Positions 2,250-23,429 of a DNA stretch of 25,956 nt are shown here, one piece after another. Position 1 is the stretch's first letter, and each line of letters starts with the position of its first letter. Source of the DNA: a virus; the IMG/VR virus record IMGVR_UViG_3300011252_000638, positions 1 to 25,956 of that record. One strand, written 5' to 3'. The notes below the pieces were generated by a model. That model made no database searches and was not told the origin of the DNA. It saw nothing but the letters and a program-made list of their open reading frames with translations. The position numbers and the translations under genes were made by a program.

Positions 2250-2299
2250 TGGCGATCCCACGAGGATTCGAACCTCGGACCTACTGCTTAGAAGGCAGT
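2250..2299 (-). other. attP core: 3' half of a tRNA-Arg(TCT) gene
   Basis: Read on the minus strand, this 50-bp stretch is the 3' part of a tRNA. It has the anticodon stem ACTGC/GCAGT around loop CTTCTAA (anticodon TCT, Arg), the T stem CGAGG/CCTCG around TTCGAAT, the 3' acceptor strand TGGGATC, discriminator G and CCA (2250-2252). No D arm or 5' acceptor strand precedes it, so it is not a functional tRNA gene. Phages that integrate into tRNA genes carry exactly such a 3' fragment so that the host tRNA is restored after recombination. Its position next to the integrase supports this reading. Confidence 0.88.
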
Positions 2300-2390
2300 T
2301 GTAAGGGGTATTTCTTCCTATATAAATCAATAACTTAGCATTGCGTAAAACTCATAAAACCTCATGAACATACAGTGAACCGTCACAAAG

Positions 2391-17901: not shown

Positions 17902-19782
17902 TTACTCGAACATACCAAACTCTAACTGTACTTGCTTAACGGCATTATCAATCTGATCACCTTCAATCTCAGTTTTCTTTTTCGTTAAGTCCAGCCCCAT
18001 ACTCTCGAGCTGAAATTCTTGCATTTGTTGTTGCATTGGGTCTGGTTGCGGCGGTGGCTGTTGGTCGTCGCCGTCTTCACCCTCTAGCAATTCAGGTGGC
18101 ACCATCTTTTTAAGTCTGTGTGCTATAGCGTCAGCTCCTGGCCAGTCCATATTGCCTGCGATAAGATCACCAGCTACTTGGCCAGCTTGCGGGAATGCCT
18201 GAACAAAACTCATCATGCTTTCAGCAGCTTCAATGCGTTTGGTTGTATAGCTTGGGCCTGTTGTTACCTTAATATCAAAGCGGCCTGCTGACAGATCATT
18301 TAAAAGCATTGGCTCGCCGTCATAGCCAGGGATTGATTTATTGATTTCTATAAATTCTTCGCTGTCATCTTCACCTAGAATTCTTATAACGCGCTGTGTG
18401 TCATAAATCTTAGGTATGAGGTCAATTAAAATCCGTCCAGCGTGCTCTAGAGAGCGGGTAAGGTTGTCAGTGAAATGATAGTTAGCAACATCGCCCTCAC
18501 GCTGTCTTGCTAAGATAGCTTTCCCGCTTGTTTCGTTTGATCTAGCGCCAAGTGAAGCATCATAAATACCTGTTACAGCTTTCATATCATCACTTGATAA
18601 TGCGCCCTCTTGCCAAAGTGCATTTGGTGGCGGTGGTGGTGCTATTCTTTGTGGTGCTGGTGCTTCCTGATCATGATCATAAACAATATAAGGCTTTGGA
18701 CCTTTGTTTACATTATCCCATTGCGCTTTGTGCTTGCCTAATTGCTTTTTAGTTAGTAACCAAGGTGCCTTTGGTGCCTGGCCAATTGTCTCAGCAGCCT
18801 GACTTCGCCAATAATTATATAACATTTGGGGATCACGGGCCGCTCTAATCATGCCTGAACGAATGACTTGAGTTCCGTTTGGCACCTCATCACCTAAAAC
18901 TGAAATAATAGGAATATGCTTTCCAGCCCAATCATAAGGGCCTTCCAAAACTTCATTGCCGTTAATGATAGACATTTGCACTTTGTGAGTGTCAACTTCT
19001 CTCACGTCTACTGGAGGCGGAATTAGAGATAATTGAAACTCATCTAAATCAGTTATATCCAGAGTTGCGCCATCTTCAAAAAGAGCGAGCGTTCTTTTAA
19101 CTGGGATCTTTTCCCAAAACTCTGCAACAAGTATTTCATCTTGTGTCTGAAATGTTAAATAAGCGTTTCCATCATTGTTGTAAGAAACATCAACACTATC
19201 AGTGCTAGCTTTAGGGTATTTCTTTTTAAACGCTTTAAGAGGCATGTTCTCGATAACAAAGCAATGCATAGCATCTGATCTATCTGTTTTGATGCTTGCA
19301 GGGTCCCACAACACGCTTAAAGGGTTTGGGATAGCTTCAATCAATATCTCCTGATCAAAGGCTGTATCGTCCATATAATCCGTTGTGATGCGGAAATTAC
19401 CAATTCCGCATGAAATAGAATGATCAGCAGCCATTGAATAAATAAATCTAGCGCTTGATTGCTCTTCAATTTGCCTAATTATACCTGAGTAAACTTTAGC
19501 TAATTCAGGGTCGGACTTGTCGTCAACAGGTCTAGCTTTAATGGATGGCGCGTTTTGGCGTAAATCATTAACAACCTGGTTAATCATCGCACCTAATTTA
19601 TTAACAGTAATACAAGGCCGTCCAGCCGCTTCACGTTCATTTCTTACGGTGTCAGGCCATTGATCCCCAGCGCGAAAGCGTAGGTCTTTTTCCGCCTCGT
19701 CTCTGTTGTCGCGCTCATAATCCCATGCGTCTTGCAGCATTTCACGGATAGAGCTGATTTTCTTGTCTACATTCCGAGCCAT
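17902..19782 (-). CDS. Portal protein, P22 portal family
   Basis: A 626-residue portal that forms the dodecameric DNA channel. Start MARNVDKKISSIREMLQDAW, then RAGDQWP, GRPCITVNKLGAMINQVVND and RPVDDKSDPELAKVYSGIIR, all typical of P22-like portals. The later SNETSGKAILARQREGDVAN and the LIPKIYDTQRVIRILGEDD phrase are also characteristic. The C-terminal part is Gln/Pro-rich (DDQQPPPQPDPMQQQMQEF) with a final helix; in P22 the portal end forms a barrel. It overlaps the large terminase stop by 16 nt and has GAGG before the ATG. Confidence 0.92.
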   Translation of the reverse strand: MARNVDKKISSIREMLQDAWDYERDNRDEAEKDLRFRAGDQWPDTVRNEREAAGRPCITVNKLGAMINQVVNDLRQNAPSIKARPVDDKSDPELAKVYSGIIRQIEEQSSARFIYSMAADHSISCGIGNFRITTDYMDDTAFDQEILIEAIPNPLSVLWDPASIKTDRSDAMHCFVIENMPLKAFKKKYPKASTDSVDVSYNNDGNAYLTFQTQDEILVAEFWEKIPVKRTLALFEDGATLDITDLDEFQLSLIPPPVDVREVDTHKVQMSIINGNEVLEGPYDWAGKHIPIISVLGDEVPNGTQVIRSGMIRAARDPQMLYNYWRSQAAETIGQAPKAPWLLTKKQLGKHKAQWDNVNKGPKPYIVYDHDQEAPAPQRIAPPPPPNALWQEGALSSDDMKAVTGIYDASLGARSNETSGKAILARQREGDVANYHFTDNLTRSLEHAGRILIDLIPKIYDTQRVIRILGEDDSEEFIEINKSIPGYDGEPMLLNDLSAGRFDIKVTTGPSYTTKRIEAAESMMSFVQAFPQAGQVAGDLIAGNMDWPGADAIAHRLKKMVPPELLEGEDGDDQQPPPQPDPMQQQMQEFQLESMGLDLTKKKTEIEGDQIDNAVKQVQLEFGMFE

Positions 19783-21287
19783 GAGCCCTCACTGTGATTG
19801 GAGTATGTTTCTTCTTCGTCCCAATCATCTAGATCAGGCCATTCTGTTGGGAAATCTGGGTCAACAATTCGCGCCATTGCGTCAAACATGTCATCATGAT
19901 GAGGGATAGGAAAAGGCTTGTACTCCTCTTCAATAAAGACCTGGACAAGATCCTCTACTTTACCCTCATAATTTGTTCTGTGATGTGTTTCAGGCAGTAG
20001 CATCTTGCCATTTTCAAAAACTGGAACAAGTCGTTTAATTCTATCTATCTTTGCAGTCTTGCCACCCAGCGCGATAATATCAAACTCGTAATTAATTCGC
20101 TGCATCTCTGATTTAAAATGCTGTATGTCACTATCTTTGCCGTACTTCTCATAACCAACCGCCAAGGGTCTGTATTTCTTGTGCAGTTTTAAAAGGATTT
20201 TCCAGCGCTCTGTTAGGTTTAATCGATCTCTGACAATATCCAGAACTCTGTATTTCTCATCAGGTCCTAAACCGATTACCCAAATAGCGGTATAATCTGA
20301 TGTTTTCTTTTTCTCGTTCGCTGGATCAACAATGATGTACTTGTTAAGCTCATCAGGATCACAGCTTTTATAATGACGTAACCAGCTTTCTTGAAAGCCC
20401 TGCTTGCTGTCTCCTTTAGGATTGAGAAGCATCTGAGTTCCAAAGGTATAAACGCCCTGATCACGTCGTTTTTTATTAATCAACTCACGTGACATCAAAA
20501 CAGGCTCGCCCGTCTCGGTTCCGTCAACTGTACAAGGGTAAATGCGAGGCTTTACAGAGCCTCTTTTAATCATTGTGTGATATGAGTCAGAAAAGTGGTA
20601 TCTCGTGCCCACATAGCGCTCAAAACCGCCATCAGAGCCAAGCGAAAGTGAAAGTTCCCAGCTTCCTGTTGTCTTTTCCATCATTGGCGGCGTTGTAACT
20701 GATGCTTGTGTTACAACATCATCATAGACAAGCCCGTGAAAGTGTTTTGAAACTGGCTGACCATCAACAAGCCCCCAGGCTTCAATAGTGCTTTCCTTTG
20801 GGTTGCCTTTGCGTTTAACAATAATCCCGTCATCTTCAGACCATTTAGGGCTTTCTTTTTGTGGGTTCTGATAAAGGATATCGTCAAACAAGCTTTTAAG
20901 CATTTCATTGGCTTCAAATTCACGCTTGATCTGCTTTAAGAAGGCTTTTGCAATTGGCCTTGTGTGGCTAAATATACCGATAGTGATTTCAGGATTGTTT
21001 AGAATATCCTGAATAGTGAGAGCGAAAGTTATAATCGTTGATTTGTAATGCTCTCGAGCCCATAAATCTAAATAACCGTTAGGGTTGGCTTGCACTTCTC
21101 TGCATCGATTAAAGCACCAATCACTTTCAACATCAGGCCGGCTTAATCCGTATCTAAGCAGGAAATATAAATCAGTTAGGCAAAGATTCCTTAGTCTGTC
21201 CCGTCTCAGCTCTTCCGAGCATTCCTCCAACCCAGCCAAGAGTTTCTGATACTGGCTCCTGTTTGTGATTATGGTTGATATTTCCAT
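19767..21287 (-). CDS. terL: Terminase large subunit
   Basis: A 506-residue packaging motor: N-terminal ATPase and C-terminal RNase H-like nuclease. The Walker A-like stretch is the variant form WAREHYKSTI (K82, S83), as in many terminases without a classical GxxGxGKS loop. Walker B is HGLVYDD (D189, D190). Nuclease acidic residues are visible in YIIVDPA, VGYEKYGKD and HHDDMFDAMARI. Size is near P22 gp2 (499). The ATG at 21287 lies 116 nt inside the small-subunit gene and has only a weak ribosome-binding site, so coupling to terS translation is likely. The C-terminus is very acidic (EWPDLDDWDEEE). Confidence 0.93.
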   Translation of the reverse strand: MEISTIITNRSQYQKLLAGLEECSEELRRDRLRNLCLTDLYFLLRYGLSRPDVESDWCFNRCREVQANPNGYLDLWAREHYKSTIITFALTIQDILNNPEITIGIFSHTRPIAKAFLKQIKREFEANEMLKSLFDDILYQNPQKESPKWSEDDGIIVKRKGNPKESTIEAWGLVDGQPVSKHFHGLVYDDVVTQASVTTPPMMEKTTGSWELSLSLGSDGGFERYVGTRYHFSDSYHTMIKRGSVKPRIYPCTVDGTETGEPVLMSRELINKKRRDQGVYTFGTQMLLNPKGDSKQGFQESWLRHYKSCDPDELNKYIIVDPANEKKKTSDYTAIWVIGLGPDEKYRVLDIVRDRLNLTERWKILLKLHKKYRPLAVGYEKYGKDSDIQHFKSEMQRINYEFDIIALGGKTAKIDRIKRLVPVFENGKMLLPETHHRTNYEGKVEDLVQVFIEEEYKPFPIPHHDDMFDAMARIVDPDFPTEWPDLDDWDEEETYSNHSEGSWLGM

Positions 21288-21633
21288 CTATTCTTTTCTT
21301 GTCAACGATCAGGCCATGAAGTTTGCCCAAGCTATCAAGAACCCCTTTTGCCTCGCCTGCTTTTCCCTGTTCACAAGCCATTTGAAACGTTTCAAGATAT
21401 TTTTTTGTCATCCATTCAACTGTGATTTCGTGCTTTTTAGCATGCTTAGCTTGTAGCTCTTCCAGCCTTGCAACTACCTTGCTGTTGCTAGTCATGCGTG
21501 ATGCTGCTTCATTTATTGTCTTATCTGACATTCTTTTTGTATTGTAAGAGCCTCTATATGCCTCTGAAGCATTGCCGCCATTTTCGATATAAAGCTGGCA
21601 AAACTTCTCCTGCTTAATTGTTAATCCTGCCAT
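21172..21633 (-). CDS. terS: Terminase small subunit
   Basis: A 153-residue protein with an N-terminal DNA-binding helical region typical of Terminase_2 small subunits: LTIKQEKFCQLYIENGGNAS, SEAYRGSYN, and a KTINEAASRMTSNSKVVARL helix. A coiled middle and a region near TFQMACEQGKAGEAKGVLDS follow. It recognises the packaging site and feeds DNA to TerL. The start has AAGGA at good distance. Its last 116 nt overlap the terL start. Hairpin element D lies just upstream. Confidence 0.88.
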   Translation of the reverse strand: MAGLTIKQEKFCQLYIENGGNASEAYRGSYNTKRMSDKTINEAASRMTSNSKVVARLEELQAKHAKKHEITVEWMTKKYLETFQMACEQGKAGEAKGVLDSLGKLHGLIVDKKRIDGNINHNHKQEPVSETLGWVGGMLGRAETGQTKESLPN

Positions 21634-21657
21634 CTTGTTTATTCCTTTGTAGTTGCC

Positions 21658-21688
21658 CCAATAAAAAACCCGCCTGTTAAAGCGGGTT
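21658..21688 (-). terminator. Hairpin element D (terminator-like, before terS)
   Basis: A perfect 7-bp stem AACCCGC/GCGGGTT (21688-21682 with 21673-21667) is followed on the minus strand by TTTTTT and ATTGGGG. It contains the same 14-nt core as elements A, B and C, and lies three bases after the stop of the 47-residue gene and 25 bases before terS. This is the clearest intrinsic terminator of the four. Confidence 0.78.
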
Positions 21689-21690
21689 GG

Positions 21691-21834
21691 TTAGTGTTTT
21701 GTTTGTTTATAGCTCTCTAATTGAGCCTCACGTTTATCTAATAGGCTTTCAATAATATCTAGAGCTTTCCATCTTCTTTCAAAGTTGCTGCTCTTTCGAA
21801 CTATGGCTTGTAGCCGTTCTATTTTATCTTCCAT
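21691..21834 (-). CDS. Small helical protein, first gene of the late operon
   Basis: A 47-residue charged, probably coiled-coil protein: MEDKIERLQAIVRKSSNFER start, ending SYKQTKH. GGAG lies seven bases before the ATG, which supports translation. It is separated from terS only by hairpin element D, so it would be made even when that terminator works. A leader protein or a terminase accessory role can be imagined, but no family is recognised. Confidence 0.6.
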   Translation of the reverse strand: MEDKIERLQAIVRKSSNFERRWKALDIIESLLDKREAQLESYKQTKH

Positions 21835-21858
21835 TAATATCTCCAGCCCACAACACAC

Positions 21859-21870
21859 CATAGCGCTATG
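21859..21870. promoter_or_regulatory. 12-bp perfect palindrome in late leader
   Basis: CATAGCGCTATG is a perfect inverted repeat, 25 bp upstream of the 47-residue gene. Such symmetry suits a dimeric protein site (operator or packaging-related) or a short RNA hairpin. No protein can be named. Confidence 0.4.
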
Positions 21871-21929
21871 TTTTACGATTGCTTCTGTATAGGTTCGCTT
21901 GGTTCTGTTGTGAGCTAAACTCTTGGTTA

Positions 21930-22003
21930 TCAGAATGGGCGGAGGCTACTGAAGGGAGGATGCAGTGAGCCTTCATGCGCTTTTACTAAACGCCGCATTC
22001 TGA
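21930..22003 (-). ncRNA. Structured leader RNA domain 1
   Basis: On the minus strand TCAGAATG (22003-21996) pairs with CATTCTGA (21937-21930). After one bulged C, GGCG pairs with CGCC. Inside, AGGCT pairs with AGCCT and, after another bulged C, ACTG pairs with CAGT (helix arms 21972-21963 and 21951-21943). The apical loop has 11 bases and contains CCTCC, an anti-Shine-Dalgarno-like word. That is 21 base pairs in 74 nt, with an 18-base bulge on one side. No gene covers it. It lies in the leader of the late operon. The same pairing holds on the plus strand, so strand is chosen by context. Confidence 0.6.
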
Positions 22004-22023
22004 ACTTGTATTTTGTATTAGGT

Positions 22024-22104
22024 GTTCAGGGGGTGGAGCTACACACCAAATTGGCGGGGCGGCGCAATGGTGTATTGCTCAAGAGGTAATACACCCACCT
22101 GAAC
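22024..22104 (-). ncRNA. Structured leader RNA domain 2 (four-way junction)
   Basis: GTTCAGG (22024-22030) pairs with CCTGAAC (22098-22104), closing an 81-nt region with three inner hairpins: GGTGTATT/AATACACC (22069-22076 with 22088-22095), ATTG/CAAT around a GC-rich loop (22050-22067), and GGTG/CACC (22032-22035 with 22044-22047). The shape recalls a cloverleaf with a 7-bp closing stem, but there is no T-loop sequence and the first arm is 8 bp, so it is not a tRNA. It sits just upstream of domain 1 in the late direction. Confidence 0.5.
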
Positions 22105-22170
22105 CTGTGAAACTTTTAAATTGTTAAGTGAACTGTACGGCTATTTCGTACGATTGATGGTTCATATAAG

Positions 22171-22203
22171 AAACCCCACCGCCTAAAAAAGGGAGTGGGG
22201 TTT
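22171..22203. other. 9-bp stem-loop
   Basis: AAACCCCAC (22171-22179) and GTGGGGTTT (22195-22203) form a perfect 9-bp stem with a 15-base loop that could pair further (CCT/AGG). Neither side is followed by a long T run, so an intrinsic terminator is not clear; it may be an RNA structure or a processing site. Confidence 0.55.
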
Positions 22204-22376
22204 GCTAAACAATGATTTTATCCCCGCCTTATAAACACCCCGATGCTTTTGGTTAGCATTGTGTGGATTTTTAAAAACGAATCATTTCTAATAACCGGCA
22301 GCTGGATCTGCTTATCTCAATTGACACGCTTCACGTTTTCAAGGCGACGTAAAAGCGTCGAGAAAGAGAGACAATC

Positions 22377-22511
22377 ATGTCTTATAGATTAAACAGACTA
22401 GATAATCCGGTTAAGCGTTTTGTTTTTGTACGTTCGTATGAACGAACGGGTAAGAATGGTTTGAGGCAACACGTACGGTCGCACTTCAGATCATTCCCAA
22501 TAAAAAATTAA
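22377..22511 (+). CDS. Possible small basic protein with VRS repeats
   Basis: A possible 44-residue, strongly basic protein starting MSYRLNRLDNPVKRFVF. It has two similar units, FVRSYER and HVRSHFR, in its second half; short VRSYxR/VRSHxR repeats occur in small phage and bacterial proteins of unknown role. GAGAG lies six bases upstream, and a CGACG/CGTCG hairpin precedes it (22345-22360). It is the only plus-strand candidate in the 866-bp regulatory region and would be antisense to the late leader. Its length is short enough to arise by chance. Confidence 0.4.
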   Translation: MSYRLNRLDNPVKRFVFVRSYERTGKNGLRQHVRSHFRSFPIKN

Positions 22512-22568
22512 ACATTACGTCGGATGGCCTTAGTAGCAGCTAGGGTCATCCTCTTTCATCTCTATAGT

Positions 22569-22605
22569 ACGATTCTTACCTTATGGTTAACGATTCTTAA
22601 CCATA
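22569..22605. promoter_or_regulatory. Operator-like repeat and hairpin with CtrA-like half sites
   Basis: ACGATTCTTA occurs at 22569 and 22590, 21 bp apart (two helical turns). The second copy lies in a 9-bp inverted repeat TATGGTTAA/TTAACCATA (22582-22590 with 22597-22605), loop CGATTC. Each arm holds TTAACCAT, the half site reported for the alphaproteobacterial regulator CtrA, and both direct repeats hold a GATTC (GANTC) methylation-type site. It lies about 70-110 bp downstream of the candidate late promoter. A binding site is likely; the protein is not shown. Confidence 0.5.
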
Positions 22606-22628
22606 GAAATTAACCTAATTGAGATGCA

Positions 22629-22637
22629 TGTGGATAA
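22629..22637 (-). promoter_or_regulatory. Consensus DnaA box
   Basis: TTATCCACA on the minus strand is an exact DnaA-box consensus. A weaker relative (AAATCCACA) lies at about 22262-22270, and the neighbouring 22640-22700 is A+T rich. A replication origin is possible, next to the end of the replication genes. A 9-bp match alone is weak evidence. Confidence 0.4.
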
Positions 22638-22675
22638 ATGATTGAATTTTAGGCGCAACAATAGCCCCCATAATC

Positions 22676-22704
22676 TATGTATATTTTAAAAACTGATTTG
22701 TCAA
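22676..22704 (-). promoter_or_regulatory. Candidate late promoter
   Basis: On the minus strand a perfect -35 box TTGACA (22704-22699) is followed after 17 bp by TACATA (22681-22676); a TATACA two bases nearer gives a 15-bp spacer. The -35 box overlaps the stop codon of the 22701 gene. Transcription would run through the structured leader into the terminase and virion genes, with a leader of about 830 nt before the first gene. Confidence 0.55.
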
Positions 22705-23429
22705 CCAAAAAAATATTTCTTTTTATTTGAAGTGTTTAGAAGCCCATGAACCTGATCACAGCTAATTAAACAAATACCTACAGCTCTGTAAAATCCTATA
22801 GCGGAACCGCTTTGCACCCGCTTGTCTTTTGAAGACACAACAGCAATCCCAACCTTTTTTAAAAACTCTTTATCACCCTTGCCGCACCAATTCAGCCATA
22901 AACGATCCAAGCAGCCCACAAACAACGGTGGCAGCTTGTATTGCCCGTCCCTTACAAACCGGACCCAATCTAGCGCCTCCTGTTGCTCAGCAAAATTAAA
23001 AGGTAGGCCCGAGCTACTGCTGAATTCGGCCCCGTTGAATTCTTTGAACTGAGTGACGGAATAACGCCCTTCAGCTAAATCTCTCCCAACGCAATATTTA
23101 GCAAACGCCATCATTTCCTCTGCTGTAACAGATCTTTGAAACAATGATTGCCTGGTTGCAACGCTGTGATTGAAGGGGACAACTTCAGACTTTACAACAA
23201 CAGGCCCCGACCTTTGGCCATTCATTGCCTGCTGAATTCCAGCGGGTGTTTTTTCTAATCTCTGCTTTGTTGGCTCTGAGTGATGCCTGGCATCTCTGTT
23301 GCTCTGCTTTATTCGCCCTAGTTGCTCATGCTTGATAGTTTTTTGTCGCGCCTGCGCTGCCTGGATAGCCTCGAGACTAGCTGTCATTGTTTGAGTGTAA
23401 GCTTCACTTACCTTCTGATGGTCCAGCAT
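22701..23429 (-). CDS. Candidate late-gene regulator (position of lambda Q)
   Basis: A 242-residue protein of unrecognised family. The first 80 residues are polar and Gln/Arg/Lys-rich (IQAAQARQKTIKHEQLGRIK), likely helical or disordered. About 95-235 is a folded domain with FAKYCVGRDLAEGRYSV, a conserved-looking DWVRFVRDGQYKLPPLFVG, DRLWLNWCGKGDKEFLKKVG and a hydrophobic GICLISC near the end. I set the start at ATG 23429, with GAGGGG upstream, instead of a TTG at 23444. It overlaps the previous gene by 26 nt. It is the last early gene, immediately before the candidate late promoter, so a Q-type regulator is inferred from position only; a replication-associated role is also possible. Confidence 0.65.
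   Translation of the reverse strand: MLDHQKVSEAYTQTMTASLEAIQAAQARQKTIKHEQLGRIKQSNRDARHHSEPTKQRLEKTPAGIQQAMNGQRSGPVVVKSEVVPFNHSVATRQSLFQRSVTAEEMMAFAKYCVGRDLAEGRYSVTQFKEFNGAEFSSSSGLPFNFAEQQEALDWVRFVRDGQYKLPPLFVGCLDRLWLNWCGKGDKEFLKKVGIAVVSSKDKRVQSGSAIGFYRAVGICLISCDQVHGLLNTSNKKKYFFG

Follow-up and report, generated by a model that had tools for sequence, protein, structure and literature searches.

The window analysed here, the whole of a 25,956-base IMG/VR record, has ends classed as linear and is therefore probably a fragment of a virus genome. Protein family matches identified it as a temperate podovirus whose coat protein is P22-like, with an integrase encoded on the plus strand and a minus-strand gene order that runs from a primase-helicase through several small genes to the terminase small subunit (terS; 21172..21633; phrog_51, E 5.7e-20), the terminase large subunit (terL; 19767..21287; phrog_38, E 1.9e-53) and on to portal, coat and lysis genes. 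A long non-coding stretch separates the end of p247 (22701..23429, minus strand; 242 amino acids counted from the ATG at 23429) at 22701 from the start of p47 at 21834. The latter, a 47-residue open reading frame (21691..21834, minus strand) with a GGAG Shine-Dalgarno (SD) sequence, is the first gene past the leader; a family search with p47 gave no confident match, and structure prediction for p247 was too poor for use (pLDDT 45). The non-coding stretch holds element C (21930..22003, minus strand), which places the element in a long leader upstream of the late genes, as the initial annotation had it, and the 74 nt of the element are indeed without coding on the minus strand.

The late operon had been described as terminator-studded, and five strong intrinsic terminators were predicted on the minus strand, all at late-operon gene boundaries. 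The first lies directly past p47, between p47 and terS (21667..21688; AACCCGCTTTAACAGGCGGGTT TTTTATTGGG; 9 pairs and a T run), and the others are located at 17868-17846, 15713-15688, 7883-7865 and 4704-4686. A cassette of the form CCCG...CGGG TTTTTTATTGG is repeated at four of these sites (21688-21667, 17868-17846, 7883-7865 and 4704-4686); TATTGG closes its T run and, at some genes, also provides the next ribosome-binding site. A candidate sigma70 promoter (TTGACA-17-TACATA, or -15-TATACA; 22665..22704, minus strand; predicted transcription start at approximately 22670) sits between p247 and the leader, where it is plausible yet unremarkable, its score being ordinary within the window. The structured elements of the leader, A to D, lie between this candidate promoter and the first of the five terminators, and with five terminators downstream the leader is where one would expect a signal that lets polymerase pass them. 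Operator-like repeats are present at 22569-22605, consisting of a TATGGTTAA/TTAACCATA inverted repeat and two copies of ACGATTCTTA(A)CC, with an inverted partial copy at 22449-22460.

Element C forms two nested helices of 12 and 9 bp on the minus strand, in agreement with the earlier description, and all 21 pairs, checked one by one, are Watson-Crick. The 5′ strand of the outer helix (8+4 bp) consists of TCAGAATG (22003-21996), a bulged C at 21995 and GGCG (21994-21991), and its 3′ strand of CGCC (21941-21938) and CATTCTGA (21937-21930). The inner helix (5+4 bp) has AGGCT (21972-21968), a bulged C at 21967 and ACTG (21966-21963) on its 5′ strand, and CAGT (21951-21948) and AGCCT (21947-21943), followed by an unpaired C at 21942, on its 3′ strand; the single bulged C per helix, both on the same strand, had likewise been noted correctly. 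The 11-nt apical loop (21962-21952) reads CATCCTCCCTT, given also as CAUCCUCCCUU. The description of the fold as compact was an overstatement, since the two helices are divided by an 18x1 internal loop whose 18-nt side spans 21990-21973. Folded as the minus strand, the element has an energy of -24.6 kcal/mol (z -3.4); the plus strand reaches -27.7 kcal/mol (z -2.2), with an alternative inner hairpin of the TGAAGG/CCTTCA type preferred. On the minus strand this type of hairpin competes with the inner 9-bp helix and is weaker by 0.2 kcal/mol. In addition, the plus strand of the element carries GGGAGG, a 5-nt spacing and a 12-codon open reading frame (GTG...TGA; 21954-22003) that ends exactly at the end of the stem, which is probably coincidence.

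The claim that this fold is unlikely by chance depends on how strictly it is defined. When the whole 26-kb window was shuffled 60 times with dinucleotide content preserved, no shuffle held the 12+9 arrangement, and it was likewise absent from 946 kb of phage DNA in related loci. A total of 21 pairs that included at least 7 in the inner helix was found in 5% of the 60 whole-window shuffles, and a total of at least 21 occurred in 4 cases in the related loci. With G-U pairs admitted and the loop limits relaxed, 28 instances of this architecture with 21 or more pairs were counted in 1.94 Mb, one for roughly every 70 kb of strand. The fold of element C is improbable by chance under the strict description, yet it is neither compact nor unique, and the original claim holds for the strict form only.

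Element C is the third of four structures (A-D, 22204-21845), a tandem set that was absent from the initial annotation and in which stronger structures stand on either side of it. Element A (22171..22204, minus strand) is a GC-rich hairpin, AAACCCCACU...GGUGGGGUUU, followed by CUUAUAU, and is weakly terminator-like. Element B (22025..22104, minus strand; MFE -38.6) is a long irregular stem-loop with the layout 7 bp, 1-nt 5′ bulge, 5 bp, 11-nt 5′-side loop, 4 bp, A.A mismatch and 8 bp, the apparent bulge in its inner helix being in reality the A.A mismatch. Element D (21839..21919, minus strand; inverted-repeat arms 21896-21916 and 21845-21865) has a 14-bp helix and 8 inner pairs, and part of the GGAG of p47 lies within its outermost weak pairs. 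In 84-nt windows on the minus strand, B gave the best z score of the leader (-6.6), followed by D (-5.3), the A region (-5.0) and C (-3.3), which is thermodynamically the least exceptional of the four; 0.9% of control windows had z below -3. The structured leader taken as one 381-nt stretch (21835..22215, minus strand) has an MFE of -120.6 kcal/mol and a z score of -6.2, compared with -3.1 on the plus strand, and ranked first among 136 sampled 381-nt stretches from both strands in a reduced-depth control that used one common assumed standard deviation. In a strand-resolved scan each of A, B, C and D scored a better z on the minus than on the plus strand, partly because B and D contain wobble pairs available to the minus-strand RNA alone. 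This bias points to a role at the RNA level on the minus strand, with selection on RNA transcribed toward the late genes and not on the DNA.

Elements B and C have a stem base in common (ACA.GUUCAG ... CUGA..ACC), and both have an asymmetric loop on the 5′ side. Alignment of B with C gave p 0.015 globally and p 0.06 locally, and a model of C run on the window ranked B third (E 0.78), similarities of borderline significance that are suggestive of B and C being duplicated units, or paralogues.

Relatives were sought with the terL, portal, p247 and p44 proteins, and the DNA of the leader and of its elements was searched against viral, phage, plasmid and related-locus collections, none of which held a related leader. 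No terminase large subunit in the searched collections exceeded 64% identity, and neither the leader nor p44, p47 or p247 was found at significant similarity in the terL-related loci. Neither the 95 TerL relatives nor the 8 prophages bearing a portal had a homologous leader; prophages with portals approximately 50% identical have other terminases and lack the leader. In the prophages L175-L178 (of the order around L007), these portals stand beside terminases that are unrelated at this sensitivity, a mismatch that, judged by protein similarity, is that of a mosaic head module. Exact-arm patterns of C were absent from the viral collection. Sixty-four loci matched a B/C pattern, a number close to the chance expectation, and the model of C found nothing in them; look-alikes of 74 nt upstream of terL in two loci (L049 and L013) are AT-rich hairpins with no likeness to C in sequence or bulges, and the best match of the C model among relatives (L044/L045, E 0.03) has the whole outer helix broken. 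The 44-residue open reading frame p44 (MSYRLNRLDNPVKRF...; 22377-22511, plus strand; phrog_21154, E 4e-7), which is antisense to the leader and has a terminator-like hairpin downstream (22522-22551, plus strand), was missing from 50 related records.

In Rfam, the leader region (21600-22750) had no match at the gathering threshold or at E<=5. The initial annotation had likened element C to the put sites of HK022, RNAs that suppress termination via the beta′ zinc-binding domain with no phage protein needed. These sites comprise two adjacent stem-loops with multiple bulges within approximately 70 nt of a phage leader before terminators (PMC9378689). The putL and putR sequences, identified in HK022 through their similarity to each other, folded as two adjacent stem-loops, as published (PMC9378689), and a model built from the pair gave no above-chance match to the minus strand of B, C or D. 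Element C shares with put its length of approximately 70 nt, a position in a phage leader before terminators and a multi-bulge stem-loop; it differs in forming a single nested stem interrupted by an 18x1 loop, whereas put has two adjacent stem-loops and a conserved sequence, and in preceding late genes, whereas put sits in early operons. By the two features tested, adjacent stem-loops and a match in sequence and structure, element C is not a put site proper. By analogy, the leader could work like put in a broad sense.

In the late leader of lambda (PR′ to tR′, 6S RNA), which is controlled by Q, a terminator precedes the late genes. The present locus likewise has a leader and an intrinsic terminator (21688-21667, minus strand) before its late genes, but differs in that a small gene and multiple long structured domains precede that terminator. 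The tested unassigned neighbour proteins gave no match to the Q family, the record being a fragment, and no antiterminator (N, Q or a NusG paralogue) and no Q site were recognised in this fragment. The C4 antisense RNA of P1/P7-type phages is a structured RNA, codirectional with its target, that pairs with the ribosome-binding site of the target. Element C resembles it as a structured RNA codirectional with a possible target, p247, with whose start its pairing is predicted only; it differs in that it lies downstream of p247 and that the Rfam C4 model was unmatched in 21600-22750 (gathering threshold, E<=5). The leader also resembles GOLLD and ROOL, which are long structured non-coding RNAs of phage genomes (PMC12286853), but it is a simpler chain of hairpins of approximately 380 nt with no Rfam match at the gathering threshold.

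Pairing of the CCTCC in the apical loop with the GGAG of p47, as had been proposed, is ordinary at -8.2 kcal/mol. A stronger duplex was predicted with the start of p247, where 13 nt (GCAUCCUCCCUUC) all pair with GAGGGGA-AAUU-GGAUGC (23442-23426) at -19.4 kcal/mol, leaving a 4-nt bulge and covering both the SD sequence and the AUG. The p247 start was the best of 33 phage start regions for this loop, 0.75-1% of shuffled loops were as strong on p247, and the other loops of the leader gave nothing comparable. By the raw duplex energy of loop plus arm, the p247 start region ranked 1 of 1468 windows; when the costs of opening C and the target were included, the net energy of -5.7 was matched by 56 of the 1468 and is unexceptional. 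This test was devised after the loop had been seen. The predicted pairing points to a possible small-RNA function and is not a finding.

What the present evidence establishes is strong structure in the leader, and any function is inferred. The reading ranked first, tentatively and at somewhat less than even probability, is that element C belongs to a cis-acting late-leader RNA of approximately 380 nt in a P22-like temperate podovirus. Minus-strand transcription would start near 22670 or within the leader and run into p47, terS, terL and the capsid genes, and the nascent leader RNA would fold one domain after another and affect, in cis, the transcription complex or the transcript itself. It may enable polymerase to read through the terminator at 21688 and those further downstream, or it may set the amount of leader or p47 message that is made before termination; in either case it would act as a late-leader control element, like lambda PR′/tR′ or put in the broad sense, outside the described RNA families. 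This reading draws on the absence of the strict 12+9 fold from the shuffles and the related DNA, on the rank and minus-strand bias of the leader among the sampled stretches, on the z scores of B, D and the A region relative to the control windows, on the five terminators, the first of them directly past p47, on the candidate promoter between p247 and the leader, and on a gene layout confirmed by family matches. Against it stand the unmatched put model, the ordinary promoter score and the lack of a recognised antiterminator in what is a fragment, together with the failure to find a homologous leader, which is a point against this reading and not a refutation.

Four stable hairpins could equally serve the stability or processing of a message, and A-D may therefore be no switch or antitermination signal, acting instead at the 5′ end of the late or p47 message as barriers to RNase E/III or as RNase III sites. 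Such 5′ hairpins are known in phage and bacterial messages, and B and D are long, near-perfect stems directly upstream of the p47 SD sequence, with D ending at the GGAG; this account, which leaves unexplained the bulges and large 5′-side loops common to B and C and the presence of four different domains, is rather unlikely, though placed second. Ranked third, and a shade less likely, is a putative small RNA from the late leader that would accumulate and, like C4 or other phage antisense RNAs acting on SD sequences, use the loop of C to block the SD sequence and start of p247 late in infection, p247 being taken as a replication-module gene that is codirectional and just upstream. The strength of the loop duplex and the first rank of the p247 start by raw energy favour it, but the net binding energy is equalled by many other windows and the pairing was tested post hoc.

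The remaining two accounts are each improbable, to about the same degree. Element C alone could be a chance or decaying structure within an otherwise structured leader: its z score is the weakest of B, C and D, its looser architecture is common enough to be met about every 70 kb and an alternative fold lies within 0.2 kcal/mol, but the strict form was found in no shuffle and no related locus, and the weak similarity of B and C in sequence and stem base also speaks against this account. A site acting as DNA and not as RNA (a replication origin, or packaging or recombination hairpins) would suit the position between the primase-helicase module and the terminase genes, and inverted repeats form on DNA single strands too; the better folding of the minus strand, whose RNA alone has the wobble pairs of B and D, argues against it, as does a leader without reported tandem short repeats, and P22 packages from a site in terS.

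For the cis-acting late leader, put offers the classic precedent among the few known cis-acting RNAs that alter RNA polymerase over long distances, and, outside the lambdoid phages, none is to our knowledge described ahead of a late operon of the P22 type. Should the leader act in this way, or should the loop of C silence a replication-module gene, it would be a new RNA control point at the switch from early to late expression. The more specific proposal of an antitermination RNA unrelated to put, protein-independent or phage-specific and built of tandem long stem-loops with B and C as duplicated units, which would license the whole terminator-punctuated late operon, is decidedly unlikely.

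Elsewhere in the window, the only Rfam match was a weak one to tRNA (2253-2328, minus strand; 32.3 bits), for which ARAGORN makes no call. It adjoins the integrase gene and may represent the copy of a tRNA gene at the attachment site. Near the left end, two pairs of direct repeats, 1-43 with 653-695 (43 nt) and 126-146 with 700-720 (21 nt), are 95% identical and flank small plus-strand genes that include an HTH regulator; they look like a duplicated promoter or leader region.
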